A stretch of DNA of 64,000 nt. Source: Pomacea canaliculata (Eukaryota; Mollusca; Gastropoda; Architaenioglossa; Ampullariidae). The DNA lies in contig NC_037593.1 in assembly GCF_003073045.1 (NCBI RefSeq), positions 3,959,525-4,023,524 on the forward strand, read 5' to 3'. Of this stretch, positions 1 through 40,700 are shown piece by piece (position 1 is the stretch's first letter; each line of letters begins with the position of its first letter). The position numbers and the translations under genes were made by a program. Under the pieces are notes generated by a model. It had not been told where the DNA came from and made no database searches. It saw nothing but the letters and a program-made list of their open reading frames with translations.

Positions 1-237
1 TTCTTCAGCTACATCATCTTCATCACTTGCCTCCTGAAGCAGATGAAGAAAATATTTACAAGTAACATACTGCAAATCCCTCAAAATTCAAAACAGCAGA
101 GGATAATCTAAAGCAGTCAGAAAACAAAGCACCCCCCCCCCCCAAAAAAGTCTTAACATACTAACCTGATCCCTTGCCTCTGATATCTGTACTGCTAAAT
201 CTGGCCATTCTTTGTCAGCCTGTGAGTGACTTGTTTC
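1..237 (-). CDS. Two coding exons of an unidentified gene (partial, runs off the left edge)
   Basis: Two exon-like blocks read right to left. The first is 237-166, exactly 24 codons (begins ETSHSQADKEWPDLAV, ends ARDQ), after a CAG acceptor and before a GTTAGT donor. The second starts at 33 after a TTCAG acceptor and runs off the window (EASDEDDVAEE). Both are phase 0, so they join in frame. The visible peptide is acidic and hydrophilic, with no recognisable domain. The snoRNA array at 463-4730 lies upstream on the same strand, so it may sit in an intron or 5' region of this gene. These exons could also be downstream exons of an alternative transcript of the 4966-13611 gene, but that gene has its own in-frame stop. 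Product unknown. Confidence 0.45.
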
Positions 238-462
238 CTGAAAACAAACCCAAAACATAAATGAAGATTGAATTACAACAGTCAGGGAACGGAACACGTT
301 AGGCAGATTCGGGGATTACTGTGCCATCTTTCAGAATGGTGTCGCAAGTTGCCAAGGTAACCTTATCACTTAATTCACAGAAAAAGTACTCTAATCTAGG
401 ATGCCATAACCTCTACACTCACACAAAAGTTCTACTTCACTTTTTTTTTTTGAATCTTTGAA

Positions 463-529
463 AAGCCTTCAGAACAACCAGTCACTCATAGTAATCAGAC
501 TGGGGCCGTAGTTTCTCCTCCTAAGGCTT
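463..529 (-). pseudogene. Degenerate U31-like C/D snoRNA copy 1
   Basis: Retains a perfect 7-bp terminal stem (AAGCCTT at 463-469 against AAGGCTT at 523-529), a D box CTGA and the D' CTGA. The C box position reads GGAGGAG instead of the UGAUGA type. The guide reads ACGGCCCCAGT, with a G/C swap relative to the other copies. Loss of the C box and a mismatch in the guide suggest a non-functional copy. Relation to the array is clear; functional loss is inferred. Confidence 0.6.
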
Positions 530-1584
530 TCTGGACATTGCGAATTGTCCGAAATAACAACTTGGATTTCAGTTATGCATCAACTTCGTGCTATGAAGCT
601 TGTTTTACTTCTCGTACAGCTGATACCTGGAGTTTGCTAAAGTTTTTGGCTCTGGATAGGGACAGACTCGTGCACAATCCCAGAACTGATGTTGAAGTTA
701 ACAGATCTCATGACATGATCCATCTTTGTTCTCAAGCACATGATAATCAAATCTAAACAGTTTTCTGAACATATTTTAAGGGTACTACATTAAATGACAT
801 GATGCAATGAGTACAGCAACTCTTTAATAATGTCCTATTAACCATGGAAAGTGTACTGAAGATCTCATAACCCTATCTCTAATAATAAAGCTAATACAAA
901 GCCAACATTACTAAGCCCTCAAAATCACCAGTCAGTCACTGTATTCATATTGGGTGTGTGTGTGGCGAAAGGGGTAGCTTTTGTCCTTAAGTGCACATTT
1001 TACAGAGGTGTGCAGGATTAACAGTTTTACATAGTCTTGTGGTTTTATACTTCATGCTAATATTAGTTCTCCACCACAGTCTGGCACAAATTAAACTAGG
1101 TGCCACAAGCAGAAAAAGAATGGCATGCCCAAAATAAGCCAGGACATCCAATCATCACTTTGTTGGTGACAGGTACTTAACCACTACAGCAGCAGACTGC
1201 ATGGGTGCTTATTGCAAGACTGGAGATTCTTAAAAACAAAAACAAGTGCAACCTGTTCAGGCAAAAAGGAAGCTCAAAATATTTAACACGGCACTTTTGC
1301 TTTGAAATTAATATTTGAACTAAGCTATGCACGCACCCTATACACTTTTCAGTAGCTGAAACTATACTGCTGTTTGAAAATGAATGACTAGATGATATTA
1401 TTTGTTGTCCTATTAGTGGATAAGTAACTACTTTGTTATTACCATTTGCTAGTTTAATTGGATGTGATTGGTGATATTTGTCTTTTTTTATTATTTATAA
1501 GCGAATGTGTAAATTTTTGAAGGGTCAATTAAATATTGTCATATCCTAATAGCACCCTAATTGCTGCTAAAAGAACTGAGTGGA

Positions 1585-1653
1585 CAAGCCTTCAGAACAA
1601 CCATTCAGTCATGGTGCTCAGACTGGGGCGGTAGATTTTCATCCCCAAGCTTG
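1585..1653 (-). ncRNA. SNORD31-like: U31-like box C/D snoRNA copy 2
   Basis: On the minus strand it has a terminal stem (CAAGC with GCTTG), a C-box-like GGATGAAA, the guide CTACCGCCCCAGT, D' box CTGA, and a D box TTCTGA before the closing stem. The C box is weaker than in copies 3 to 8 because it reads GGATGA rather than TGATGA. It may guide the same 28S 2'-O-methylation as the other copies. Confidence 0.6.
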
Positions 1654-2037
1654 CACATGGCTACTTGTACATGGCTATTCACACTCCATACCCTTCAACA
1701 GGCAGCCTCATCAAGTTCTTAAATGAACAAAGTCACAATCCTAAAATACAATCCCATTAGCTTAATGTATTATCTCTCGATATTAATGTGAAACATCACT
1801 ACCATACCTAAATGTTTGAACCACAGGAGACTTGAAGAGGAATTTTTCATCAGTAATAATCTTAAGCATGCATATCTGAATTAGCATCAAACTGCCAAGA
1901 CATCAAGCACTCCAAGAATGCGAAGACAAAAAAAAATTGACCCAAACACAGAAACACGAAAAAGAAACTGTACACCTACAAAGTGAAGATCTAACTTCAG
2001 TTAAGTTAAAAAAAAATAAAATAAAAATCATTTGATA

Positions 2038-2101
2038 AGCCTTCAGAGAAACCAATCAGTCACAGTATTCAGACTGGGGCGGTAGATTTCATCACGAGGC
2101 G
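2038..2101 (-). ncRNA. SNORD31-like: U31-like box C/D snoRNA copy 3
   Basis: Minus strand: C box GTGATGA, guide TCTACCGCCCCAGT, D' CTGA, C'-like TGTGACT, D box CTCTGA and a short GCC/GGC closing stem. The guide pairs over about 13 nt with the conserved large-subunit rRNA segment GACUGGGGCGGUA, counting the first base of D'. The D'+5 rule places the methylated residue at the second G of that GGGG run. U31 in vertebrates and snR67 in yeast are known to guide this position. The closing stem is slightly altered (CGAGGC instead of CCAGGC). Confidence 0.75.
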
Positions 2102-2283
2102 GTCAACTATATTTTTTAAACAACTCTCTTCATTTTAGATCACAAAGCACGATACCACACTACAATATAATTTATATGACCAAATTAAGGTGTATGTAAA
2201 ACACGTTATTAAAGCTGATGTAGTGAAAGGGGTAAAACCAGAAATGAAGCAGAGTCAATGAGTCTTTTTTTGTTATATATGAA

Positions 2284-2346
2284 AGCCTTCAGAGAAACCA
2301 ATCAGTCACAGTATTCAGACTGGGGCGGTAGATTTCATCACCAGGC
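2284..2346 (-). ncRNA. SNORD31-like: U31-like box C/D snoRNA copy 4
   Basis: Minus strand, all boxes intact: stem GCCTGG, C box GTGATGA, guide TCTACCGCCCCAGT, D' CTGA, C'-like TGTGACT, D box CTGA and closing stem AGGCT. It is essentially identical to copies 7 and 8, so it is a consensus member of the array. Confidence 0.8.
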
Positions 2347-2686
2347 ATAGTCGCCACTGTGATATTTTAAAAATATTTCTCCCTTTAAGACATAAAATAT
2401 AGTACTGCTACTGCTACACTATGTATATTATGCAGTAAACATTTAGATTATGCACTACACTTTTAACATCACTAGCCTCACATGATTTATACAATCAGAC
2501 CATTTTTTATGTCATACACATACATTGTCTTCACAGTAGCAACTATTTTTACAAGTATTTGCAATCTTTTTTTTAAAAACAACTTACAAAGCTCTATGGC
2601 TATTGGAAATCACAAAAATAATCAGTACACACTGAAAATTCAGCAAGATGCTTTATGATTAAAAAGACAACTATTGGATTTCTGGT

Positions 2687-2750
2687 AAGCCTTCAGAGAA
2701 ACCAATCAGTCACAGAATTCAGACTGGGGCGGTAGATTTCATCACCAGAC
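2687..2750 (-). ncRNA. SNORD31-like: U31-like box C/D snoRNA copy 5
   Basis: Minus strand. Same boxes and guide as the consensus copies. Differences are a 5' stem reading GTCTGG instead of GCCTGG, and one substitution (GAATTCTGTG) in the D'-C' spacer. C, D' and D boxes are intact. Confidence 0.78.
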
Positions 2751-3121
2751 ATACAGTCAGCCACGATACTTCAAGTCTCTTCAATGAAGATCATAAAATA
2801 TGACACTGCAGTACTCTATGTACATTAAGTAGTCAAATTTAATTGTGCAACCAAAGTACAAATGCTCATGAACTGTACTTCCAGCATGACTAGCCTCAAT
2901 AAACTTATTCCTACAGTATTCTGTAGCTAGAATGTGTTATACACAGATTGATTGGCATGTGTTCCAAGTATCAACTATTTTTTTACAGTTGTAATCTTTA
3001 TAAAACATAGTTACAACACTACCAACAGCTCTCTATGACTGTTGGAAAAACACAAAAATAATCACTAAATGCTGAAAATTCAGTAAATTGCTTTATGATT
3101 AAAAGAATAGTGTTTTCTGGT

Positions 3122-3185
3122 AAGCCTTCAGACTAACCAATCAGTCACAGTATTCAGACTGGGGCGGTAGATTTCATCACCAGGC
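3122..3185 (-). ncRNA. SNORD31-like: U31-like box C/D snoRNA copy 6
   Basis: Minus strand. C box GTGATGA, guide TCTACCGCCCCAGT and D' CTGA are intact. The D region reads TTAGTCTGAAGG, with altered spacer bases before the CTGA, so D is kept. Closing stem GCCT/AGGC is present. Confidence 0.78.
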
Positions 3186-3500
3186 ACAGTTCTTCATTAA
3201 AGACACAAAATATGGTACTGCTACATTAATCTGCTACTGCTACACTATGTATATTATGCAGTAAACATTTAGACTATGCACTACACTTTTAGCATCACTA
3301 GCCTCACATGATTTATACAATCAGACCATTTTCTGTCATACCTACACATTGTATTCAAAGTAGCAACTATTTTTACAAGAATGTGCAATCTTAAAGCTAC
3401 AAAATTACCAACAGCTTTGGAAATCGCAAAAATAATCATTACACACTGAAAATTCAGCAAGTTACTTTATGATTAAAAAGTCAACTATTGGATTTTTGGT

Positions 3501-3565
3501 AAGCCTTCAGAGAAACCAATCAGTCACAGTATTCAGACTGGGGCGGTAGATTTCATCACCAGGCA
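3501..3565 (-). ncRNA. SNORD31-like: U31-like box C/D snoRNA copy 7
   Basis: Minus strand consensus copy with GCCTGGTGATGA at its 5' end, guide TCTACCGCCCCAGT, D' CTGA, C'-like TGTGACT, D box CTCTGA and closing stem AGGCTT. All boxes are intact. Confidence 0.8.
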
Positions 3566-3963
3566 CTCAATCAGCCATGTCATTTAAACAAGTTTCTTTT
3601 AGGTCATTAAGTATGGCACTACAGTATTCTATGTACTATTATGTAGTCAAATTTAGATGTGCATACAAAAGGGTTATGTTATATGTAATCACAGTAATAA
3701 AGTGTATGCACTGCACTTTCCCCACATGCTTCATGCCATTAGATGTGGCTAACAAGTGTAGTGCCGAGACCGGGAGTCATGGAGCATAAGTATCAACAAG
3801 TTTACAGAATTTATAACCTTTAAACCCTCAAACTTCCAATAGTTCTGTGTAAAAGCACTAAAACTATCAAAACACCAGACAGATTTAAGCCAGATGTTTA
3901 ACATTCTCATAAAGTCTGTGATTTAAAATTAAAAAAAAAAAAAAAAACCTTTGGGTTTCTGAT

Positions 3964-4028
3964 AAGCCTTCAGAGAAACCAATCAGTCACAGTATTCAGA
4001 CTGGGGCGGTAGATTTCATCACCAGGCA
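3964..4028 (-). ncRNA. SNORD31-like: U31-like box C/D snoRNA copy 8
   Basis: Minus strand consensus copy, identical in its boxes and guide to copy 7. An A-run of about 18 nt lies about 20 nt outside its 3' end. Confidence 0.8.
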
Positions 4029-4660
4029 GTAAAGTGCTCAAAAAAGTCTGTTGTTATCATGAACACGATGCAATTGATATTTCTAATTACTGGCTTCAAG
4101 TGTACAATTGCATTAGCTTATATGTAATCACATTGCAAAATATGAATGCATGCCTCTGTTTATATTCTAGAATTGTATCGGTGCTGTTGTTTAGTCACCA
4201 ATATTTAATATACATAGTCCAGTAACTGTATTATCAAATACTAACTTAAGAAGTAGGCGTATCCTATAAAGCCTACCATTTAACTGTTTATCTGGGTCCA
4301 GGGTTAGAAAAAAGCCAAGCATGCTGCTTCAACTTCATGTACATACATGATGTACAACTGATATACAGAGATGTAGCACTTCTGTTAAACTCACTAATTA
4401 GGCAATAACCAGAAACGGTAAAACCTAGGCACCATCCACTGTTATCTCCTGCTCTAGTCTGCACTGCATACAAATATCCTGCCAGAAGCAGCAGCCCTAG
4501 CAGAGCATTGCACAGAGAAGCAGCACGTAGATCAAAACCAAAACAGAAAACTGATCGGAACAGGTCTTGATCAATGCTTTTACTCTGTGCTACATGACGC
4601 AAATTTCAGGTACCATACAAACATCTTTTCTTTTTTTAAAAAAAAAAAATATGAAAAGCT

Positions 4661-4730
4661 AACCCACCCTCAGAATAGCCAGTCAGTCATCGTACTCAGA
4701 CTGGGGCGGTCAGATTTCATCCTTGGGTTT
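4661..4730 (-). ncRNA. SNORD31-like: U31-like box C/D snoRNA copy 9 (divergent, strong stem)
   Basis: Minus strand. The terminal stem is a perfect AACCCA/TGGGTT and differs from the GCCTGG stem of the core copies. C-box-like GGATGAA, guide TGACCGCCCCAGT, D' CTGA, C' GATGACT and D box TTCTGA are present. The compensatory stem change argues that this copy was kept functional while diverging. It lies just beyond the likely poly(A) signal of the 4966-13611 gene. Confidence 0.7.
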
Positions 4731-4744
4731 GTCCTCAAGCAAAT

Positions 4745-4750
4745 TTTAAT
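4745..4750 (-). terminator. Candidate poly(A) signal ATTAAA
   Basis: Minus-strand ATTAAA about 215 nt beyond the TGA stop of the 4966-13611 gene. No AATAAA is closer. It falls just before snoRNA copy 9. Confidence 0.35.
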
Positions 4751-4965
4751 TTTGATCATATTGCAATATTTCTAAACACCTGTGCTAGAGCTGATTCAGG
4801 ACAAAATAATGGAAGGCCATAGCCAAAGAAATGGAACAAATCAACAGCTGTTATCTACTTTGTTCTGCTTAATGAGATGTAAAGATTCCCCTATTTCAGC
4901 TGCCACAATTTCAAAGCAATAAAGCATTTAAAAATCTTTGCTATTTCATTATCTCGATTCTGTTC

Positions 4966-7900
4966 TCATTCCTGTCTTGCTTCTTCAGTTTGATAAGAAT
5001 TTTTCACAAACATAGCCTGGAAAAACAAAACAGACGGTTACCTTTAATAATAAAAGTATAACGAGCCAAACAAATCACTCACCTCTAAAGTAGCCACTGA
5101 GGTCTCCAACTCCAATGTGTCTGATGCACTCTTCTTACGATCCACCTCTACCAAAACCTGAGTCAATAGAAGCAGAAATAAAATACATCTTACAGCTGTT
5201 AAGTTTTTGAACCATGAGCTATAAAACAAAATCTACCCAAAAAGTAACAAATAAATACAAAATAACTGGCTGTCACATTTGCTAAAAACCCAACCATGCA
5301 GAAGAAAATACCTTAAGAATCTGGCTTTGGTTACTATTGGGGTCATCTGACCTTTGGTTAAAACAGAAGTTAGAACTCTGCAATACGCAGCCAGGACCCA
5401 GTTTAGCAAGGCTGCAATTAACCAGAAAGGGGTTTAAAAGGATCTTACATCAAGCAGACGATCATGTATGTTGTCATCAACATCATCCAACATAAATGCT
5501 GTGACCAGACGCCCCTTGAACTTGCGATCTGTTGGCAAATCTTCTGAAAGGGCAGGGCTTTTCTTTAGAAGCCAGTGGATAACACCTTTTGGAGCTGGAA
5601 GATCCCTGCTTTTCTGCAAATGCAAAAATTTCACATTTGCAAAACAAGTCTCAAGAAATTTTTTTTTAATGATAAAGTCAATGCTCTGTTATTTATATAT
5701 TTTTCATAGTGAAAAAATAACAAGTAATTAATCTGAACTTCTTCCCTCCGATTCAGTTCAGTGGTGTGAAGCTGTTCTCAACTATGGTAGTGCTGTACAA
5801 CACATGGCACCGTGCATAATACAAAAGGGAGAAAACTACTGGTACATTCAGGATGTGTTATGGTGTGGATTATCTACCTTTAGCAGCTGAAAAAAGTCAA
5901 CAATCAGGTATTTTGCTGTTTGAATGTAGGCAAGGTTTCAGTTAATTTAGGCCCATGTTTGCGGTAGTCGTTACTATATTTGACAAAGATTTATACTCCA
6001 ACAACGCAAATTGCAAGAAAATTGTAATATTTAAATCCTACTGTCTAATAAAACGCCTATTTGGAACTATATATTTGTTTATGATGAATAATTTTTTGAG
6101 AAATTTGTATTTTTTTTACCCACTTTCCCAGTCTTCTCTCCGTCCCATACAATCACAATCTTTTATTTCAATTTAGTAGAAAAAACAAAACCTATATTTC
6201 TTAAATGCCACATTACATAAATGTTTATAAAATGCTCTTTAAAATGATGTAACACAATTGGTTATCTTTCTTGTAGGTTAATAGTTATACTCAAAAACTT
6301 TTGATCACAGGCTTTTCAGCCTAAAATCACGTGTAGCAAATAAGTTAAGAGGTCCGAAATAACCTTGATGAGCACAGATGTTTTTCATACAATAAAGTGT
6401 TCATATATTTTAAAAGGTAAACAGGTGTTCAATAACAATAACAACAGACTTTATTAATCCCAATGGGCAATTTAAACATGGGAGCTGTGCCCTGTGTCCA
6501 GAATGTATGTATATGGGAAAAAAAAACAAAAAAAAAAAAAAAACACACACACATGCACACCTACCCATCACACACACACACACCGCTGATAGTTCATCTG
6601 TGATTGAGTAGCTGAACTGCGGATGGCACAAAAGATTTTAGATGCCAATTAGTTTTGCATGCTGGCATGGCATAGCGTTTACCGGAGCATAATAAAACAA
6701 ATTTTCCCGCTAGCATGCATTTTCTTTTATTTGACAAATCTTACCTCTTTTACATCTCTCAGCACAGGCAGCAAGTTGGACCACATGCGAACTGCTAAAA
6801 CATAGCGAAGGTAATTCTCTGGGCTGCTCTTCTTTGGCTTCTTCAGAAATATCTTTCTGTAAAGCACAATTTACAACACAGGTCTAAAGATATGCAAGTT
6901 CCTTAGCTGGACAAGTATTGTCATAATTAAATATATCATTCTAAAGTATAAGAGGTACTGTCACTATTCACTTAAAAAGTGACACGCACCTTAAGAGAGG
7001 CAACAGCAGATGTCCATTCTGCTGATCAGCAGCTGTGACCTGAAGCACGACGTCCAAGAGTTTTGTCCCAACATCTGTCATAAGATAACAGACAAACTCG
7101 CACACAGACCGCTGCTCCTCCTCAGAATTTCTGTAGCCCACAAAAGAGAAAAATTACAAAAAGTTTAAGGATATGTTCTTTACTTAAGTAGCCTTACATT
7201 AATTGCTTGCTTTAAAGATAACAAACGAAAATAGCAATTTGGAGAGTGGTGTCTCTTCCCCTGACTGGCTAGAGGGGATTAGCTCTCCTTCACGTTTTGT
7301 CTTTCCCTGTTAATCTGAGTGAAGTTGTTTCAGCAATATTGATCTATAACGCAATTTCCTATTTTCCTAGATTAAACATTATGTCTGTGCCACTTTTTCT
7401 TCTTTTCTACACCATTTAATTCTACTGCCACGTCAGCGCCATCTTGCCATAACTTACATTTTAGATCTGTGTATCAGCAGTGTCAACTTCAGACTGATTC
7501 CTTTCCTACAATTGCTCAAGAAAGTCTTATGTTTGAACTGTCACAGCAAGCTTCGTTCACAGTAAGTGCAGGTTTGATAGGCTAACATTGTGCATCTCTC
7601 TGAAACTAGTCTGTGACTGTTAGCATGATGCTCTGACAAGAGTTGTCATTATGGAACCATATTTGTCTGCAAAAGTTAAGCCGCTCCACCAAAGATTGAC
7701 AGTTAAGCTTCCACAAAAACTCTCAACTACTTTTTTAAAATCAGAACTTTATTGACTTATGAAGATTTCATGCAATGGCAAGGCTGCAGACTACATATAT
7801 ACTGATGGCATTATATATATATGTGGACACGCAATAAACTTCTTGTTTTTGAGATCAGCATTTATTATTATTGTGTCTGTGGGTTTTTTTGGTTTTTTTT

Positions 7901-10900
7901 TTTTTTGTAAAGAGTTCTGAGCCTGCCTTTGATGGTGGTGTAAAGTGCTATATAAATCACCTTCATTTTTATTATTATTGTTTTCCAAGATGCAGTAGAA
8001 TGGCAACCCACAGTACAGTAGAACAGCAATAACCATTCAAAACGACCATTGCATAGCACAAAGTGAATTGTGAATCTGGATTCTTCCAACACGGTTACTT
8101 CTTATGGTCTTTTTAAGCAGACAAGTGTTAGCAAGCTTTTGTGACAAGACCATAAATTCTGATCAAAAGTTGACTATTTTCATCTGACAGACTCTTTGTT
8201 TAACAACAAGACATTCCTTACAAATTTCAGGAGGCAAAACTCACCTGTTCTTGATGAGCAATAAATCCAAATAAAGAGAAATAAGAGAAGCCACCAGATC
8301 TGTATATGTGGGATAGTCATCACCCTTTAAAAATAAAAACACACGAAAGTAAAATTACAGACTGCTAATCACAAGCAGCAGCATTGTATGCATTTAACAC
8401 AGCATTAAGCACACCAAATAATATATTTTACACCATTCTATGATCATCCAACAAGTTTTCCAACCCTGAACCTAGATTACCAGCCTATGAACGTTGTTCC
8501 ATATATGGATGTTATAGAAGTAGTGTTCATGAGAGCTTTTCCCCAAATTACTTTAAATGTACATGCCAACTTTTGTAATAAATTTTTACAGTACCTTGCT
8601 TTAACTCCATTCAAAAAACTTTCCCTAATTCTGATTTCTTTTCCCTCCTGATACCACCCAAAAGTTACATATGCTCTTATGTAAGTAGGGATTGACTTAA
8701 GGGCAGGAACTCTGGTGAATTAAGATAATGCATGGTTAAAACAAGTTTCTTTTAGGACCAGACACAAACACACCAGAATGGGGCAGTAAATCATCATTGG
8801 TCACTTGTCTTACACATTTTGTTCTCATTAATTCGGTCAGGAAAAAGCTTTGGCAAAAATACTCTGGAAATATAAGATGTAGTATCTACACAATACCCGA
8901 AAGTACACAATGGATAAACAAGATGAGATCAGCCAAGACAAGCAGTAGTTATTTAGTTGAGCTTTTTTTTCAATTAACTGTTGAATGGGACAGGGAGTGA
9001 AAAACAAAAATTTGCATGCATCAAGAATGAGCACATACCAAATTACTTGCTGGCTGCTTCATATGACACAACTGAAGAAATTTCTTAAGATGGTGAACAC
9101 ATTCTGCAGCCCTGAGTTTGAGAAAGAAAAACACAAATGTTATGAACACACAAAAGAAATATGCACACTTGTGCGGATTAATATCTCAGCTCATACTATA
9201 CCTGGCTATCATTCCAGTTAGGCTAGCAAAAATAGTCCTGTAAAACCTTTTCATTAAGACTTGTCAAAATCCATTTAAGTAAGGAAGAAACTGAGTGCTC
9301 TGCATGTTAATGAAACTGACCTCAAACACCTATTCCAACACCAAAAGACAAATCAACCAAAGCTCAGTTTAAATGAATGTCCAAGCAGCAACCCATTTGA
9401 TTTTTACTGAATGTACATTTAATATAACCCCTCTAACCAGAAGAATAAATGACAACAATGATGATGTTAACAGCTGTTTGTGTCAATGGAGATAAATTTG
9501 TTTCTTGAGCCATGGTCAAATAACCCCCTCTAGCCACTGGTTGCTGATGCAATTGTAGACATAAGAAAGGATTTATCTCAGACACATATCTAATCTACTC
9601 ACTGGTCTTTGGATCGATTTGCCACAATTCTTTCTGTAGTGCTCTGAAGCTCACTGAAACAAACAATGACATTAAAAAAACTACTTTGTCATTCGCAGAT
9701 CAACTGTGCTAGTAAATAGTTAAAATACAGTCCAGCATTGTGCACAATTCTCTACCAGGTCATGGCCACTACTTTTACCTTGTTAACACTGAAATAAAAA
9801 AACGGAAAAAGCCATAACAGTCCCCCAAGAGTAAGAAGAGCTATATTTTTTCAGATAGTAGCATAGAGAGATTGCATTTTGTAAAGTGTCGGCCTACTGC
9901 ACCCAATAGTACATGGCAGTCAAAACAGCACGACACCATCAAGGCAGCTAATAATAACTGAATTTGTAAGCATTCCTAACTGGATGCAAGTTTCATACAC
10001 TGCGGATAAATAACAGACAACCACACAAGAAACAATAATGCCAGATAGCACCGTGACAAAAAAAACAAAACAAAACAAAAAACAGCTAAATATATGAAGA
10101 ACTTAGGAGTGTGCGGACTAGTACTCTTGATTCTGCAAGACATCTCTTAAAAGGATAGGTTTTGGGCCCAGATTTAATGTCAAATCAAGAGCAAGTCTAT
10201 AAATCACCAACTCACAAACTCCCTTATCACGATCTCACTTGTAAGAATTAGACATTTAAATAACCACAAATATATATATCTCATTATTACATATGGCATA
10301 AGCCATGACTTATTCAAAATTTGTCCTGCTGAAACTCCTCTACTGCTATTCATGAGAACAAAATTGAAGAAACTGAATCTCACTTGAAATACATCTGCAC
10401 AATTTTCTTCAGCACAGTGATGCTGACATTACCGGGCATCAGCTGCAGCAACCTGCAGTACTTGTCCACACCTTGCTCAGAGGCACAAGAATTCTGCAAC
10501 AAGATGCCAACGAAAGACAAAAGTAAAATTAAGATTACATGTGATGATTCATGATACTGCATATTTCTTCTGGCAACTACTGATGGCTTCATCAACCTGC
10601 TTATTATTAATTCAAAGCATGTATTTATAATCTTTCCAAGCATTTTAAATGGATTACAATCAAGGGTTTTCCAGATTTCTGGTCATAGAGGATGTCAATG
10701 CAGGTACTTTAAGGTATTCTAGGCATGAGCTTGTAGAAGATGAAACATATGTCCTTCTGTTGTCTTCGCTATGGTCAACTATTTCCATGACTGAATCAAC
10801 TGCTCTTCCCCTAATATCTGCTGGACAGGCAAGAATTTGTCTAGTCACATGCTCGAAACTGGACCTAAATCAGCAACTTTCTGCTTCAAAGTCAAGTGAA

Positions 10901-13611
10901 CACCAGACCATAGTGTTCCTGCTTCTTTAAATATTTCATTTAAATGTTACTCAATTTACCATCAAGGCATCGGCAAACTCCGACAGCTTTTCTATGTTTG
11001 TTGATTTTTCCAGCTGCTGTGCCACAAAAAGTGCTTGAGCACCTGTATCATATGAAGAAAAGCATATAAAGCTAGCATTAAACTTGTTGGCATACAAATA
11101 ATATCTTCAACTACTCTGCTTTGGCAGAACTATTTTAACAGATATACACAAAAGATGTGTAATAACAGTCATTCAATAAGTGCACTTCCAACATGGAAGT
11201 GATCTCAATGCACTATGTACATAATACAAGCAAACTCACAATCATGCAACAAAGAAACACAGGCATCAGGAAATTGATGATATAGAGGCAAACTTAAAAA
11301 AAAAAAAAAAAAAAAAAAAAAGAAGTTTGCTCAATTTAAAGATATTTCTTACAAACATGGATAATGAGGCCATATTTTAAAGTTTCAAATGTAGAAACAA
11401 TTCAGAAAAATTAGCAAAGAATTTCATACAGTGGGTCCACAGAATTAAGAGGCACAAGAACACTGTTCTTGAAAGTAGCAGGTGAAGACATAGTGCCTTA
11501 TACTACCATCAACACCAGCAACTACCACAGACTGGATGTAGATTATACCAGTTCCAAACTACTGTGTCAGTAAGACTGAGCGAAAGCACTGGAGAGGGAT
11601 GTCATGGTCAAGTGTGTAGCACATAAAACCAAATGATTTAGTAATCATACTAATGAGATGTGATCCCTGTCATAGAGAGTAAGTTATTCAGGACTCAAAG
11701 CAATGCTTATTTTGGTTAAAAAAGTTTTCATGACAGGCAGATTTAACCCTACCAGACCTGAGGCCCTGAACCTGTTCCCCTATACCTGGGCTCCTGAGCA
11801 TTTTCATGTACTAGACAAAGTACTGAAAATTAGTTACAGCGGTGTAGCGGAAGAAATGGAAATTATCGAAAAATCAGTGCAGTGGTCTGATAGGGTTATA
11901 TGGTTTAGGACTCGGAGCAACACAGACTTTATATGCATGTTTAACTGTAAAGGTGATTAGAAACGGAAATAAATTTTACTTACTAGGGTCTCTTAATAAG
12001 AAGACTGCAAATGCAGTTGCTGTGTCCCTCATTGGTTCTACATTAGACTATGCTAACAGCTGCCTCTGGGGGATTTCAAAGAGCGAGTTGTCGAGGCTAC
12101 AGCGAGTGCAAAATACGGCTGCGAGGATAGTTGCAGGAAAGAAAACAACTGACCATATTACTCCTGTACTTCGTGACCTACATTGGCTTCCTGTGGAGAG
12201 GCGAATTGAGCATAAATTGTTAACCTTAACCTATGGCTGTCTTCACGACCTTGCGCCTGTCTATCTACAAGAACTCATTCGCTGTTACCAACCCCAGCGG
12301 AACCTTCGTTCAGCAGCACACTTCAGACTTGAACGACCGAGTGTTCAGTCAGGGAATGCTAACAAGAAGACTGCGGGTTTCAGATCCTTCTCCAATGTAG
12401 CCCCGCTTTTGTGGAACTCGCTTCCCCTCTCGACCAAGGAGTCTGATAGTATTGGATCTTTCAAGAAAAATCTTAAGACTCACTTGTTTAAACTTTTTTG
12501 AAGTTTTTATTTGACCTGCAGTTTGGTGGCTGCTGGGATCACCGCGCATTGTGATGCGGATACTAGCGCGCTAAAAAACTACATCATCATCTCTGCTTTT
12601 TTTTATGTAATGTGGAATTTATGTTACACTCACCACATTTGTATAGAGATATGCAAACTCACCAAGAGAATGTTGACTTGGAAACTGTGTACATTTTTCC
12701 TTTTCACCCACGTGGTTTGTGTCCTTGATAGTGGTCTTAGTTTTGGTATGTTCTGCAACAGCACTGTTTTTTGGATCTACACCATTAGACGCCGGCAACT
12801 GATTAGTGTCCTTTTTCTTCAATGAAGTCTTGTGCACATACCTATCAGTAAAAATCACAAGAAAATGATTACTTTCATTATTTTTAATTTATGCAACATG
12901 AAGTATGCTTGTTCTTAAACAGCCTTTATTTCTCTGATGCAAGACTGGGGTAAGAAAACCCAGCTGTCTGCCCATTCAACAAATATATTTTAAGATTTAA
13001 TTTGGAACCCATCTTTTTCTACTAAATATTATATTTCAAAGTACTTACCTAATAAAGAACTTAAGACAGCTGGTAGAGTTTTGAAGAACAGCTGTTTTTA
13101 AATCATCACCATCTGGGAGCTCTTGTATGATGCGCTCAAAATATTTCTTCAGATTCTTGTCAGAAAAATCTTTATTAACACCTGCAATTTATGTATGCAA
13201 ATACACAGCATTAAGAACCAACTATCAACATGAATGCGGACATCCTAAAATGATGTGCCAGTCATCTGCACCTATCATAAGTATAAGCCCATTAAAAGTA
13301 GCGAAAATCAGAAGTTGAATTCTGAAAGATTTTGTTTTAAATGGTCGCAAAAAATATTACTTTTTTCAAGTTGTTCCGTGGAAGACGGCTTCACCAAACA
13401 CCCGAACCTTACAAGCGGAAACTTACAAGCAGAAATATACCGGCCTGATAAAATGTCGGCACGTACCACGAGGTAACATGTGAGCTATGGATAAAGTAGT
13501 CAGACCCATAAAATAACGAAACATTTCACCTTTAACGAGACGTTTAGCGAGCTGTTTTAGGAACGTTTTGTTTGTGCTGTCCAAAGGTTTTACTTGGGTG
13601 TTACCGTCCAT
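4966..13611 (-). CDS. Unidentified 13-exon gene, predicted all-helical protein of about 430 residues
   Basis: Coding exons, in order: 13611-13530, 13181-13049, 12841-12663, 11042-10960, 10493-10384, 9653-9603, 9111-9039, 8324-8245, 7130-6990, 6856-6745, 5613-5449, 5157-5083, 5016-4966. Each has an AG acceptor and a GT donor, and the phases join without a stop from ATG at 13611 to TGA at 4966. The protein starts MDGNTQVKPLDSTNKTFLKQ and ends QTEEARQE. A lysine/threonine-rich hydrophilic stretch (exon 3) is followed by mostly amphipathic helical sequence with leucine-rich patches such as LISLYLDLLLIKN and ENYLRYVLAVRMWSNLLPVL, suggesting a helical solenoid. I cannot assign a family. No signal peptide or membrane segment is evident. 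It is head-to-head with SETD1. The exon chain is well supported; the function is unknown. Confidence 0.8.
6425..6600. repeat. Low-complexity A-run and CA-repeat block
   Basis: An intronic stretch with a long A-run interrupted by C at 6518-6544, followed by CACACA microsatellites at 6542-6582. It is preceded by GACTTTATTAATCCCAATGGGCAATTT at 6449-6475, reminiscent of dispersed-repeat tails in invertebrate genomes. The family is not identified. Confidence 0.4.
8755..8803 (-). pseudogene. Possible decayed U31-like snoRNA in an intron
   Basis: Minus strand: a closing stem GACCA/TGGTC, a good C box ATGATGA, then TTTACTGCCCCATTCTGG, which resembles the array guide TACCGCCCCAGTCTGA with three changes. 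The 3' box reads CTGG rather than CTGA. It lies in the intron between 9039 and 8324 of the 4966-13611 gene, about 4 kb from the array. It could be a degenerate relative or a chance resemblance. Confidence 0.35.
11294..11321. repeat. Poly(A) run of about 26 nt
   Basis: A simple A-run in an intron of the 4966-13611 gene. No retroelement body is recognisable next to it. Confidence 0.7.
11953..12590 (+). mobile_element. 3' fragment of a CR1/L2-like non-LTR retrotransposon
   Basis: An open frame of 182 codons ending TGA at 12501 encodes the C-terminal part of a non-LTR reverse-transcriptase polyprotein. Hallmarks are LDYANSCLWG, LQRVQNTAARIV, DLHWLPVERRI and FKKNLKTHLFKLF, the conserved tail after the RT palm. 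The palm with its catalytic FADD box is absent, so the copy is 5'-truncated near 11960. It ends in a short ATCATC-type tail at about 12581-12592, as CR1/L2-like elements do. It lies antisense inside the intron between exons 3 and 4 of the 4966-13611 gene, its tail close to the exon at 12663. A dead fragment, judging from the truncation. Confidence 0.85.
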
Positions 13612-30731: not shown

Positions 30732-33536
30732 ATGGACGAACCTGAAGGTAAGAAGGTATTTTACTGGGCTTACCGTATCTCGAAGTTAGTATTTTTGAAT
30801 TGGTTTTAGTCCAACGGGTATTAACTGGGTTAGTTGTCATAGTCAGAAAGTCCAGAACATGTTTTTCGGTATCTCCTATTCAAAGAGTTTAAAATGAGTT
30901 AGGTCCACATTGTTTCTCGCTTCTAGCTTGATTTTCTGACGATTGCAGGAGGTTAATGTGGAGGCATGTGGATGCGGAAACACTAACTTTTTTTTTGCAA
31001 ACAGGATCTGCTACTACTTCTGCTACTGTTATTATTACTATTTTTCTATATTATTATTATATTTAAAATATATTTCTCGTCCTCATTGCAAAGGATCATC
31101 AGCCACTGATTCTGGATGTGGTGCAAACTTCGAGCCTTACATAAACAGAGGGACTTTCACACCCTTCCAGAAATTACAGGTGGGTGGTCTCTGTTTCCCT
31201 GATCTCTCACCTTCATTTCTCTCTCTCTAAGCTAAATACTTTCAAGGCACTATTGTATGTGGGGGGACATGAACTTGAGCAAAGCACTATATAAATGTTT
31301 ATTACTATTATCTGTACAGAATGTATCAAATCATCTTGCGACCTATGGACCAAAGCTACAGCACTGGGTGGCTGCCTTGCCCTGATATACCCGTAGTTGC
31401 TAGCTCGTGTAAAACACCATCCACCCACCTACCCTCTCCTCGATGCAATGTCGCCCCGCGAAGTGTAGAGTTATTAGATGAAATGATCTCCCCTTGTCTT
31501 AACGGTAGGTCAACGACCTACCCGCGGGGTGGCGTCACCAGGAGACCCTTGATGTCATCAGGCGCGTGGCGCAACGTGTGGTGAGGATTCGGGTGCCCTT
31601 CCTCAGCGTCCACCGCCCGATTAGCATCTACAGCGATAAGAGGAACTTCGGGGGAACCGGCTTCGCCTACTACGTGGACCACCAGGTCGTCAAGGTGAGT
31701 GTCAGTGAGGTTGGAGGTGGAGGAAAGATGATGACTACCCCGTTTAGACGCAAAATGCGACATCTGTGTCATCAGTTGAATTGTCATCGATAATTTGGTT
31801 TATGGAGAGCAGATTTTTGTTTCTTCCTGGATATATGTGCATCGCTATCATTAATGCTGATGTTCTTATTGTTCTTCACCATTGTTTACCTTGTGGTCAT
31901 GCCAGTGATTCAAAGTATAAATGCGATTTGAGGTTCGTGCAACAAGATCGTTATGGTGTGAATGTACGTAAGGATGAACAGTAAACATACTTTTTAAAAA
32001 ATGGAGGAGTGACCGGCCAGTACGGAACAAACTGGGTGAAACTGCTCCGACCGGAAATTATTCTTAGTTAGCATGATGTGTTTAACTACAAATCGGAAAT
32101 GCTTTTTGTAGAAAAAAGACAAGTTTATCTTTGATCGGATATACCTATTTCAGGTGCGCACCAACATGCACGTGATCTTCAACAAAGAAGAAGCTGGTGC
32201 ATCAATTATCGACTTCTTCCTGGATCTCCCAGACCGGAAGCGCCCAAAGCGGATCGAAATCCGGGGCTCTATGCACGACTTCGACTGGAGCATCTCGGAG
32301 GATTACGCCAGCATCACCTGCGCTCCTACTGCGAAACTTCTCCAGTACATGAACCTCTTCACCGACATCCCCATCCTATGGGAGACCAGCTTCTTCAGCA
32401 ACGACAAGCCGCACGTCGACAGGGCAGCCCTCAGCACATCAGCACAACACGCAACAACAACGGAGAATGTCGACAGGGCTCACCACCCAGAAACAGGGGC
32501 TTCGCACTTCAAAGATGCTTGTTATTGGGCAGGTATTGACAGAAGTGTCAGCGCATGTGCGCTACAACCGGAAGACTACGTTGTCCTCATCTCCCATCCA
32601 GACGGCGGCGAGAAGTGCTTTTCGGTGGGTCATGCAATCGTTTATCCGTGTGCAGGGGTCACGGCGCATACGCGGGCCAGCAAGCATTGCAGCGATCCCG
32701 CAGTGAACCAAAACAGTACGTGGGCATCAAGCAGGCTGGAGGGCCAACCCACCTGGCTCACCTTCCTTAAGCGGGTGGCGATGAACTTGGACCGCTACTA
32801 CAGCACACAGTCCATGAATGGTTGCAGCGGCGCTCCCATCCTAATCCTCAAGCACTCCCTGCGCCATCTGCGCATGCCCATCCTGGACACCAGCCAGCAC
32901 TCCGGCAGTGTCTGCTTCGAGAAAGGCTTCAGCATCGGCTACGCCACAGCCTTCATGCCCTCCATGTTCGGCAGCTCCCGCTGTCCAGACCGCGTGTCCG
33001 AGGAAGCACTGCCTCACTTCCAGGCGGCTGCGCAGAACGGAGACTGGTCGCCGGATTCCATCAGCGACAGCTTCTCGACCAGACGAGTTCGTTCGTCGAG
33101 CAGCAAGCTGAAAACGCCATGGCGGAGGGGCATCACAGGACTCAGCGCCACCTCACGGGACAGGCCACCGTCATGTGACATCAGCACGACAGGAAGGCAA
33201 GGGAAAGACGAGCAAGTTCATAGGTCGTCGGAGTGTAGAGCGAGGAATGGTGCTCGCATGCTGAAGACAAAGTTAGGAATGAAGCCTTCCACTCGCAAGA
33301 CGGCTTCATCAACCTCGAAAAGACAGGAAGCCGAGTATATCAGTCGTTTGCTGAGTCTACGAGAGACGGTGACTCTGACCACTCCGCATTGCTTCCGCAA
33401 GAACTACATCCAGCAGCGGAGGGAAGCTGGGTGGAAGGCAGACGCCAACAACCTCAGAAGCACTTTCCCCTTCCTCACTCACAACCAGCACCTCCCTACT
33501 CAGCTGCCATCCCAGTGCGGCAGAACAGACTGTTGA
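30732..33536 (+). CDS. Trypsin-like serine peptidase-domain protein
   Basis: Exons: 30732-30747 (MDEPE), 31094-31179, 31509-31694, 32154-33536. All junctions join in phase, giving 556 codons as read. The peptidase-like core runs from GTGFAYYV in exon 3 through TNMHVIFN (candidate catalytic His) and DYASITCAPTAKLL (candidate Asp region) to NGCSGAPIL (nucleophile Ser in a GxSGxP loop), with VLISHPDGG between. This order fits a chymotrypsin-fold peptidase, and the arrangement resembles uncharacterised molluscan proteins of this kind. No signal peptide is obvious, so it is perhaps intracellular. Sequence after about 33080 becomes low-complexity and may be read in the wrong frame (see findings). 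GC-rich relative to its flanks. Substrate unknown. Confidence 0.75.
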
Positions 33537-37702: not shown

Positions 37703-40700
37703 TTAAACGTCTACCGCTCCTCGGCGACGAAACTGGAAATCGTACACTTGGATGGCGCCGGTTGTCGTGGTAACGATTAATGCCCGTTCGCTCTGACACA
37801 AGTCCGGCGAGGCGTCGACGAAAGTGACGAGCTTCATCTCGGCGTCCGACACCTCGGCCAACGAAAAGATGACCGAGCATTGGCCGGTCTCCGTGGAGAC
37901 CACGTGCAGCCTGGCCGTCTTGCCGTCCACCACGAAGACGTTGGCGTAGCCGTCCCAGCACAAGCCCATGGGCGCCTTCAGCATCGTGTCCGCTGACCCA
38001 CCGACCCCCGAGTACGTGTGTTTGAGAGTGTTCTCCCTTGTGAAGATCTTCACGTCGTGGTTTGTCCAGTCAGAGATGCATATCTGAAGAAAGGTTGGGA
38101 CGGAGAAGAAAAATAAAATAAGATTCTCACATCATTCCATGAAATAAACGTTGGAGGATGTATCTCATCCTACACTTTCCCACTTTTCCTTTCTCGCCCT
38201 TTGACCACAATTACATTCCAACCTCGCCACAGCACCGTTTTCATCTCGACACCAGACCGTTTTTACATCGATACAAGACGATACAAGTCCATTCTTACCT
38301 CACCACCTCCACACATGTCCACACAGCGAGGGTAGGCCACGTTGGCGCAGTCGATTGCTCGCAGGATGACGCCCATGTAGTCGATGACGTGTACCTTCGG
38401 ATTGCCGAAAGGTGGACACACGCTGGCTACCAGGGAGGTGGGACTGTACGTGGCCAGTGAGGCGTAGCCGTCACGCGTAGTGAAGTGTGACCGGTACAGC
38501 AAACGGTTGCCTCCAGCGGCAACATCTACCATGCGAATTTTCTGTTCCTAAAAATAAGAAATAGGATTATGGAACGAACAGGTTTACCTTCGCACTTTTT
38601 AAACCCCACTTAGAAGTTCCAAGTAGGTCAAAGCTTGGCTCAAGGCCACAAGGTATTTTTTCTGTTTGTCTGATACAAATCAGCGTTTTAACATTTAAAA
38701 GAAAAATAATTCAAGTTGAAGCAAGATATGTCTTCCAAGTACAATGTGATCAATGTTATAAAAAAGGTTGACAGCAGAAATAAGCAAAGGGAATGCATTG
38801 TCTCTCGCACCAGCGCCGGGCGCTGTTGGATCACGTGACTCGAGTTAGGAATTCGGCAGAACCATGCGTTCGGGTTGTGAGCCCTGTTACACATTGCGAG
38901 ACAAAATGATGTGTTACAAGAAATAACAAGAAAAAAACCAAATGAAAGAAAACATTAAAACTAAAATAAAGCAAGGAAGGAGAAATAAAAAGATGTTCAT
39001 CAAATCAAGCTAACCAAATGTAATGGATTGGGGAGGGGGCGGGACAAAGTACGATGTTGGTAGACTTCGATAGAGACAGACAAGAGGAAAACATCACGGG
39101 TAGTTAGAGACAGACAAGAGGAAAACATCACGGGTAGTTCACCTTAGGGTAGGTGACGGCCAGCACTCCTGACTTTCTCAAGGCCACGTCCCAGGGTTCG
39201 GCGTCCTCCGAGAAACACATGGCATCGAGCACGCGGCCGCCGACAATATCGACGAGCTTGAGGCATTTGTTCCAGCGGTCAGTCACCACCACGCGGTCCC
39301 GGCAAACCGCCGTCAGCCCCACCACGCCCGGCATGTTCTTGACGTCACTCTCGTGCGTGGCCAGGAAGTTGCGCACGCAGACTATCTTAGGCGCACGCGC
39401 TTGGTCGCCGTCCGACACCACAATGTGGTAAGGAGGAGCGGGCGAAGTGGCGGGCGAGCGGCTGCCGCTTGTCGCCCGGCCATAGGCGGCTGAGAGCCTC
39501 GCTTCCCAGGGACGAAAACTCTTCGTCGGATGTATAGACGGAGCCACCGTTCTTGCTGTTGTCGCCGCTGTCGCTGCTTCTTGGAAGGAGTTTCGATGCT
39601 GGCGTGTCGTTGTCGTAGACTACAGTGGGGGAGGGGGTAACAGAGCAGGACTTCTCGGAGGATCGTCTCCCATGGGCGACATCGCGTTCGTCGTCAACGG
39701 ACCGCAAAGCGTGTCGTCTGCGAGCGCCTGGAGGAAAAGCCCCCTCGCTGCGAGGTCTCCGTCGGCGTGGGAGGCTTCTGCTTCTGCTCTTTGCCTCCTC
39801 AATTACCGTCGACCCAAAGTCCGGCGAGGTTGGACTTCGTCTGACAGGGGGCTGCGAGTTTTTCGGGACCTCCAGCTTTTGCCGCATGTGGTCCGTCAAA
39901 TCCGACTCCACCGTCGTGGCACCGCTTGGCGTTGCAGTCGCTGGAGCAGAGGCAGCTGCGCCAGGGGGAGAGAAACCTCTTCTGGCAATCCTTCCTTTCT
40001 GTGAAGAAAAAGAGGGGCCTAAGCCGAGGGACACATCATCCCATGCCTCATCTCCGGGGACCGACCTTTGCTGTAATAGAAGTACAGAATCCCGAGGGGC
40101 AAGGGGCGAAGAGTAGGAATTGGGATCAGAGGAGTACCTGTGCGTTCTGGGTCTGGCGCCGCTGGAATCCTGCGGCTTGCGTTCGAGAGAAAAGGTGCCA
40201 AAGGTCAGTTTGCGAAAGAGTGTCTCGAAGGTTTTGTCCGGGTAGAAGACGATCTCGCTGAGTGTACTGTCCTTGCGGGTGCTCTCCATGACCTGCTCCT
40301 GCTTCTTCAGCTCCTCCTCAACGTCGTTCAGCGCCGTCAGACCGTCCAGCGTCGAGCAGGCGCCTCCTTCCACGTTCGACAGCGTTTCCGCCATTTTGTC
40401 GAACACCTGGCTGACCTCCAGCGCGCGCTCCTTCACCCCCGACAGGCGGCGTCGCTCTCTGTCTACCAGCATGTCCAGCTGCCGCCCCAGCTCGCGCTTC
40501 TGCTCCAGAACCATCAGCTCCAGCTTGGTTTTGACCTCACTGACAGCTGCCTCGGTCTGTAACTGCAGCTGCTCCTTCTTGGAGTTCAGTTCTGTCACGT
40601 GACTGTTGACCTTGTCCATGAGACCTTCCAGCCTGATCTGCCACGCGAAGTTAGGCCAGAGTTAACACTCCAGTGCTTTTGTAATAAGCCGATTAGTCAG

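Follow-up and report, generated by a model that had tools for sequence, protein, structure and literature searches.

A nine-copy tandem array of SNORD31-like box C/D small nucleolar RNAs in Pomacea canaliculata

The DNA analyzed here is a 64-kb window from the gastropod Pomacea canaliculata (positions 3,959,525 to 4,023,524 of contig NC_037593.1, forward strand, RefSeq assembly GCF_003073045.1), and all coordinates below are those of this window. Close to its beginning, at positions 463 to 4730, lies a cluster of box C/D small nucleolar RNAs (snoRNAs), where a reading of the letters (the original prediction) had proposed nine U31-like copies in tandem on one strand. The whole window was searched with the covariance models of Rfam release 15 at their curated thresholds. 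The SNORD31 model (RF00089) matched all nine places, at the limits proposed and exclusively on the minus strand, with 42.0 to 62.1 bits against a gathering score of 40 (Table 1; copies are named by their first coordinate). The Rfam check suggested along with the prediction thus did not return the copies as non-snoRNA repeats. In the 64-kb window, no place outside 463-4730 scored above the SNORD31 threshold, and beyond these nine matches no other snoRNA family was found. The prediction had started from a recurrent word, ACTGGGGCGGTAGATTTCAT, read on the minus strand as a C box plus guide. This word was exact in six copies and present with up to three mismatches in copy 1586, with none expected according to 100 shuffles, so that this part of the claim held for seven copies; at the same tolerance it was not found in copies 463 and 4664. 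A search for the word in the viral_contigs collection found no match. A second model, built from the nine copies, gave one extra piece of 36 nt, a truncated relic of a tenth copy. A weaker hit of the same model at 8746-8812 (18.9 bits, E 0.017; SNORD31 match at 8759-8804, 21.7 bits) was taken as probably due to chance.

Table 1. Copies of the SNORD31 array and predicted parts of the surrounding gene, in window coordinates
Feature	Coordinates	Strand	Remarks
Predicted coding exon downstream of the array	166..237	-	72 nt, phase 0; open frame between splice-like sites
Putative intron enclosing all nine copies	238..5082	-	if exons 5157-5083 and 237-166 are joined; phase compatibility only
SNORD31 copy, outer type	463..529	-	RF00089 42.0 bits; one guide mismatch; C box AGGAGGA; strong terminal stem
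Tenth-copy relic, truncated	919..954	-	26.4 bits, E 2e-4 (nine-copy model); no C box and little of the guide; repeat family D4
SNORD31 copy, outer type	1586..1652	-	RF00089 51.1 bits; intact guide; C box GGGAUGA
SNORD31 copy, core type	2037..2102	-	RF00089 60.7 bits
SNORD31 copy, core type	2283..2348	-	RF00089 62.1 bits
SNORD31 copy, core type	2687..2752	-	RF00089 59.2 bits
SNORD31 copy, core type	3122..3187	-	RF00089 56.4 bits
SNORD31 copy, core type	3501..3566	-	RF00089 60.1 bits
SNORD31 copy, core type	3964..4029	-	RF00089 62.0 bits
SNORD31 copy, outer type	4664..4730	-	RF00089 48.6 bits; 12-bp guide; C box AGGAUGA
Possible alternative last coding exon	4966..5016	-	51-nt frame, in-frame stop after 16 codons; acceptor score 8.1; frame read by eye
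Predicted host coding exon upstream of the array	5083..5157	-	75 nt, phase 0; open frame between splice-like sites

The copies fell into two types. The six copies of a uniform core (2037 to 3964) are 92-98% identical to one another over 66 nt. The other three (463, 1586 and 4664), here called outer copies, are 70-84% identical to the core and have in common a U-to-G change in the C box, one additional base ahead of the guide and a distinct stretch before the D box. All the elements expected by the prediction, namely, the C, D', C'-like and D boxes and a closing stem, were present. The D' and D boxes read CUGA in all nine copies. The C box is a perfect GUGAUGA in the six core copies and carries one mismatch in copies 1586 and 4664 and two in copy 463, where it is damaged. 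The region of C' varied in one of seven columns across the nine copies. When six pairs of the terminal stem were tested, the innermost four could form in every copy, with copy 4664 preserving them through two double changes, and the two outer pairs failed in three and seven copies, respectively. The terminal stems of the outer copies were longer than those of four of the six core copies, and the stem score of copy 463 (-77.6) was better than that of every core copy (-24.4 to -52.2), although the stem windows used here differ from those of the published tool (PMC12309372).

Next, the guide was compared with ribosomal RNA (rRNA). For the 28S target letters, including the P-loop segment ACUGGGGCGGUA, a sequence was assumed, and the pairing counts rest on it. 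In seven copies, the guide adjoining D' forms 13 bp with this segment; copy 4664 forms 12 bp, and copy 463 makes 12 pairs with one internal mismatch (-23.1 versus -27.4 kcal/mol). Eleven guide letters, ACCGCCCCAGU, are identical in eight of the nine copies, including the diverged copies 1586 and 4664. In box C/D guides, the methylated base is that paired five nucleotides from D'. This count leads to the second G of GGGG as the predicted methylated base. A 50-nt Escherichia coli piece containing the target segment matched 5374 of 5426 E. coli genomes, annotated as 23S rRNA in the three matches listed, and the predicted G corresponds to position 2251 of E. coli 23S rRNA (2515 - 265 + 1), which lies in the P-loop and is a known bacterial 2'-O-methylguanosine (Gm) site. 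The aligned eukaryotic sites are human Gm4166 (U31), yeast Gm2619 (snR67), Arabidopsis Gm2610 (AtsnoR35) and Dictyostelium Gm2952 (PMC8817022). The family is listed in clan CL00053 for plants, humans and yeast, with the yeast site numbered 2616 (PMC3511168), and human Gm4166 lies in the P-site and is reported to be unaffected by fibrillarin depletion in human cells (PMC6316459). Thus, the predicted target is the published U31/snR67 methylation site, and the complementarity to this conserved 28S segment that had been claimed for the array was found again. No more than eight copies seem capable of guiding modification of the P-loop G well, because copy 463 combines a guide mismatch with a two-mismatch C box. 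The suggestion that the extra copies might serve new targets gained no support, since the eleven guide letters do not differ among eight of the copies and the single alternative guide region, just ahead of the D box, varies from copy to copy; a second guide at that place was not proposed, as the stretch is not conserved. A reading of the locus as an rRNA pseudogene was ruled out because the rRNA pairing covers just 12-13 nt and snoRNA boxes are present. When a eukaryotic 28S piece was sought in contig collections, no match was obtained in genome_contigs and two matches were obtained in viral_contigs (L001 and L002); an Rfam search at threshold over all of L002 and over 6,500 of the 11,424 bases of L001 gave no match.

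To see where sequence is kept, identity was followed along the core copies. The mean identity per 10-nt bin was 0.82-1.00 in the body versus a background of 0.22-0.37 in the preceding 80 nt. The 3' border was softer: identity there was 0.40-0.47 over the first 30 nt or so and 0.29-0.41 beyond. Four successive units could be aligned together with their spacers. In the six pairs of these units, the snoRNAs differed by 2.3-5.3% and the aligned spacers by 12-39% (Fisher P values of 2e-12, 0.02, 2e-17, 1e-9, 1e-14 and 6e-18, the pairs being nonindependent and the value of 0.02 belonging to the pair whose spacers are most alike). Among the 28 spacer pairs of the array, 21 were no more similar than the best of 20 shuffles, and six of the remaining seven were those within the four aligned units. 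That the snoRNAs differ less than the spacers points to selection on the RNA. Gene conversion could also homogenize copies, but its effect should not be confined to the snoRNA bodies. Within the body, the guide, D' and D were variable in 2 of 20 columns versus 25 of 43 elsewhere (nine copies, P = 3e-4). These data bear on the idea that the copies are a dispersed or retroposed snoRNA-like repeat lacking guide function, for which there is a precedent in a platypus snoRNA retroposon family of more than 40,000 copies (PMC3511168). Here, all nine copies lie on one strand within 4.3 kb, with none above threshold elsewhere in the window, the spacers were duplicated along with four successive copies, and the guide, D' and D are the most conserved. 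In addition, no common poly-A tail or target-site duplication was seen by eye in the flanks. A repeat origin is therefore very improbable.

The arrangement of the two types suggests how the array was built. Since the core lies between the outer copies, its expansion most likely began within the array and proceeded by unequal crossing-over, as judged from similarity without an outgroup. The uniform core of six would thus stand amid three older, diverged copies, one of which has been losing its guide. In guiding modification of the P-loop G, copy 463 probably performs poorly or has been retired, and it need not be silent. It is not called dead here because its terminal stem is strong and because, under published filters, a snoRNA whose C box scores 2 is not classed as a pseudogene when its D box is intact and its stem is strong (PMC12309372). 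From this state of the copies, it can also be argued that only some of them, the six core copies or fewer, are live, and that the others, like the high copy number itself, are neutral side effects of tandem duplication and play no part in dosage. The damage to copy 463, the relic at 919-954 and the changed C-box letter common to the three outer copies fit this idea, as does the report that expression is lacking for a significant part of the annotated snoRNAs (PMC12309372). It is opposed by the eleven guide letters, which are unchanged in eight of nine copies even where the remainder has diverged, and by the longer stems of the outer copies, which by the filters of the same paper favor expression, for copy 463 as well. 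We give this reading slightly less than even odds.

The array lies on the same strand as a predicted multiexon gene whose exons run on the minus strand from about 13.2 kb down to 5083. How the copies would sit in the introns of this putative host depends on the splice sites chosen. The upstream and downstream exons of Table 1 are phase compatible with each other, and their joining would place all nine copies in one intron. Alternatively, as in Drosophila mfl, each snoRNA could have its own short intron in a noncoding or 3' untranslated region (UTR) host, with small exons separating the copies. Animal snoRNAs usually occur one to an intron (PMC1821038 and PMC11028025). Downstream of copies 3122, 3501, 2687 and 3964, acceptor-like sites were found at distances of 83, 86, 87 and 119 nt, respectively, and a donor-like CATGTGAGG/CATGTGGGG occupied the matching place in three of the four aligned units. 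The acceptor at 5017 (score 8.1) ranked second in the splice scan only to one site inside a spacer, and the possible exon that follows it (5016-4966), with its in-frame stop, could finish the coding part ahead of the array. On the other hand, the best pair of sites in each of eight partly homologous spacers was reached by 7, 91, 15, 14, 27, 37, 37 and 51 of 200 shuffles, the acceptor AG does not fall in one aligned column across the four units, and one unit has no donor. The splice-site weights used gave scores for 8 of 10 calibration sites and low scores for some presumed real exons (-0.2 and 0.5 for two presumed real acceptors). Short exons between the copies are therefore suggestive only, and we rate an arrangement with one intron per copy at somewhat below even odds, given also the compatible phases of the flanking exons.

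The putative host gene forms a divergent pair, spanning 13.2-25.1 kb, with a plus-strand gene for a SETD1-like histone methyltransferase. The latter was recognized by an N-SET match (E 3e-4, 21.4 bits, below the Pfam cutoff of 28.3) and, by eye, by SET-like frames near 24.3 and 24.9 kb. A 217-amino-acid (aa) open frame on the plus strand (11848-12501) had no Pfam match and resembles the C-terminal part of a non-LTR retrotransposon protein. Further along, frames of a TRIM2/3-like gene occupy 37706-40661 on the minus strand; the segment 37706-38131 matched TRIM2 NHL structures (E 6e-10), and a weak NHL repeat at 39131-39619 fell below the Pfam cutoff. A 34-nt unit occurs in two perfect tandem copies at 39071-39139. 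A GC-rich open frame of 474 aa (32112-33536, plus strand), with no Pfam match at an E value of 0.1, contains a GCSGAP stretch reminiscent of a trypsin-like active site.

Overall, the locus is best explained as a local tandem array of U31/SNORD31/snR67 box C/D snoRNAs that are released from introns and guide 2'-O-methylation of the 28S P-loop G, a reading to which we assign a probability of about 0.85. It is carried by the family match, the boxes, the guide, the common strand, the constraint on the snoRNA body and the duplication of snoRNAs together with spacers. The snoRNAs would be expressed and released from intron sequence of the minus-strand host transcript, and the guide next to D' would direct fibrillarin to a single P-loop G (E. 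coli G2251, human Gm4166, yeast Gm2619). The covariance match and the guide pairing likewise support the family, strand, boxes, guide and target named in the original prediction. Several observations weigh against this explanation. Covariation in the terminal stem was not significant: of 500 shuffles, 154 reached the two double changes, 88 the covariation score and 384 the paired percentage. Of the four copies whose fold energy was computed, three were close to shuffles (z = -0.38, -0.54 and -0.72) and copy 1586 was somewhat lower (z = -1.95). Searches of Pfam and the Protein Data Bank (PDB) gave nothing convincing by which to name the host gene, its intron structure is uncertain between one intron and one snoRNA per intron, and most of the nine copies could be redundant. 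Dosage or redundancy, rather than new targets, is the most likely role of the extra copies. A specific form of this, namely, eight live copies that share one intron as a dosage array and are processed independently of splicing, with the P-loop Gm secured by copy number or tuned through a host beside SETD1, appears unlikely.

SNORD31/U31 (RF00089), yeast snR67 (RF01177) and plant snoR35 (RF01281), all of clan CL00053, share the guide and methylation site, and it is RF00089 that the array matches above threshold. Human U31 sits in SNHG1 with other snoRNAs, one per intron, and Drosophila may have several U31 isoforms within a single host gene. Compared with known SNORD31/U31, the Pomacea locus has nine tandem copies and no companion from another family in the window. 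Several near-identical C/D guides in tandem in one host gene, predicted in our case, are known from Drosophila mfl, where four DmSnR60 isoforms each occupy a 3' UTR intron of their own, with some 70 nt to the 3' splice site (PMC1821038); the guide there is a different one, and here the copies number nine and the intron structure is undecided. Vertebrate host genes also contain cis-duplicated snoRNAs, and a chicken gas5-like gene has two adjacent U80 paralogs (PMC2653536), which similarly arose by tandem duplication within one host gene, two there and nine here. SNORD113/114 and SNORD115/116 are eutherian-specific families that form head-to-tail arrays in imprinted domains (PMC11028025). Like them, the array described here consists of head-to-tail C/D snoRNAs with subfamilies and with gain and loss of copies. 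Unlike them, it encodes an ancient rRNA guide, all nine copies belong to RF00089, and no SNORD113-116 family reached threshold. To our knowledge, SNORD113/114 and SNORD115/116 have no known rRNA targets.

The original prediction had called nine copies an unusual expansion. Tandem duplication of guide snoRNAs in host genes is already known, so that the unusual part is the presence of nine copies of an ancient rRNA guide in 4.3 kb, which looks high for a housekeeping guide. No account of a SNORD31 array of this length was found among the literature matches listed, which were open-licence papers. The number is notable because a survey of 60 mammals found no significant shift in C/D-family copy number above the family level, although SNORD116 varied strongly (PMC13197249); that study covers mammals only. 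Understudied genomes might contain further tandem repeats, and snoRNAs sharing one intron are known (PMC11028025). The Pomacea array suggests that long head-to-tail arrays are not confined to the mammalian array families and can also consist of canonical guides. Modification of its target is known from plants, fungi, amoebae and animals, and its copies span the range from intact to damaged within a single locus. If expressed, the array would be a clean natural example in which to study the reasons for amplifying a housekeeping rRNA guide.

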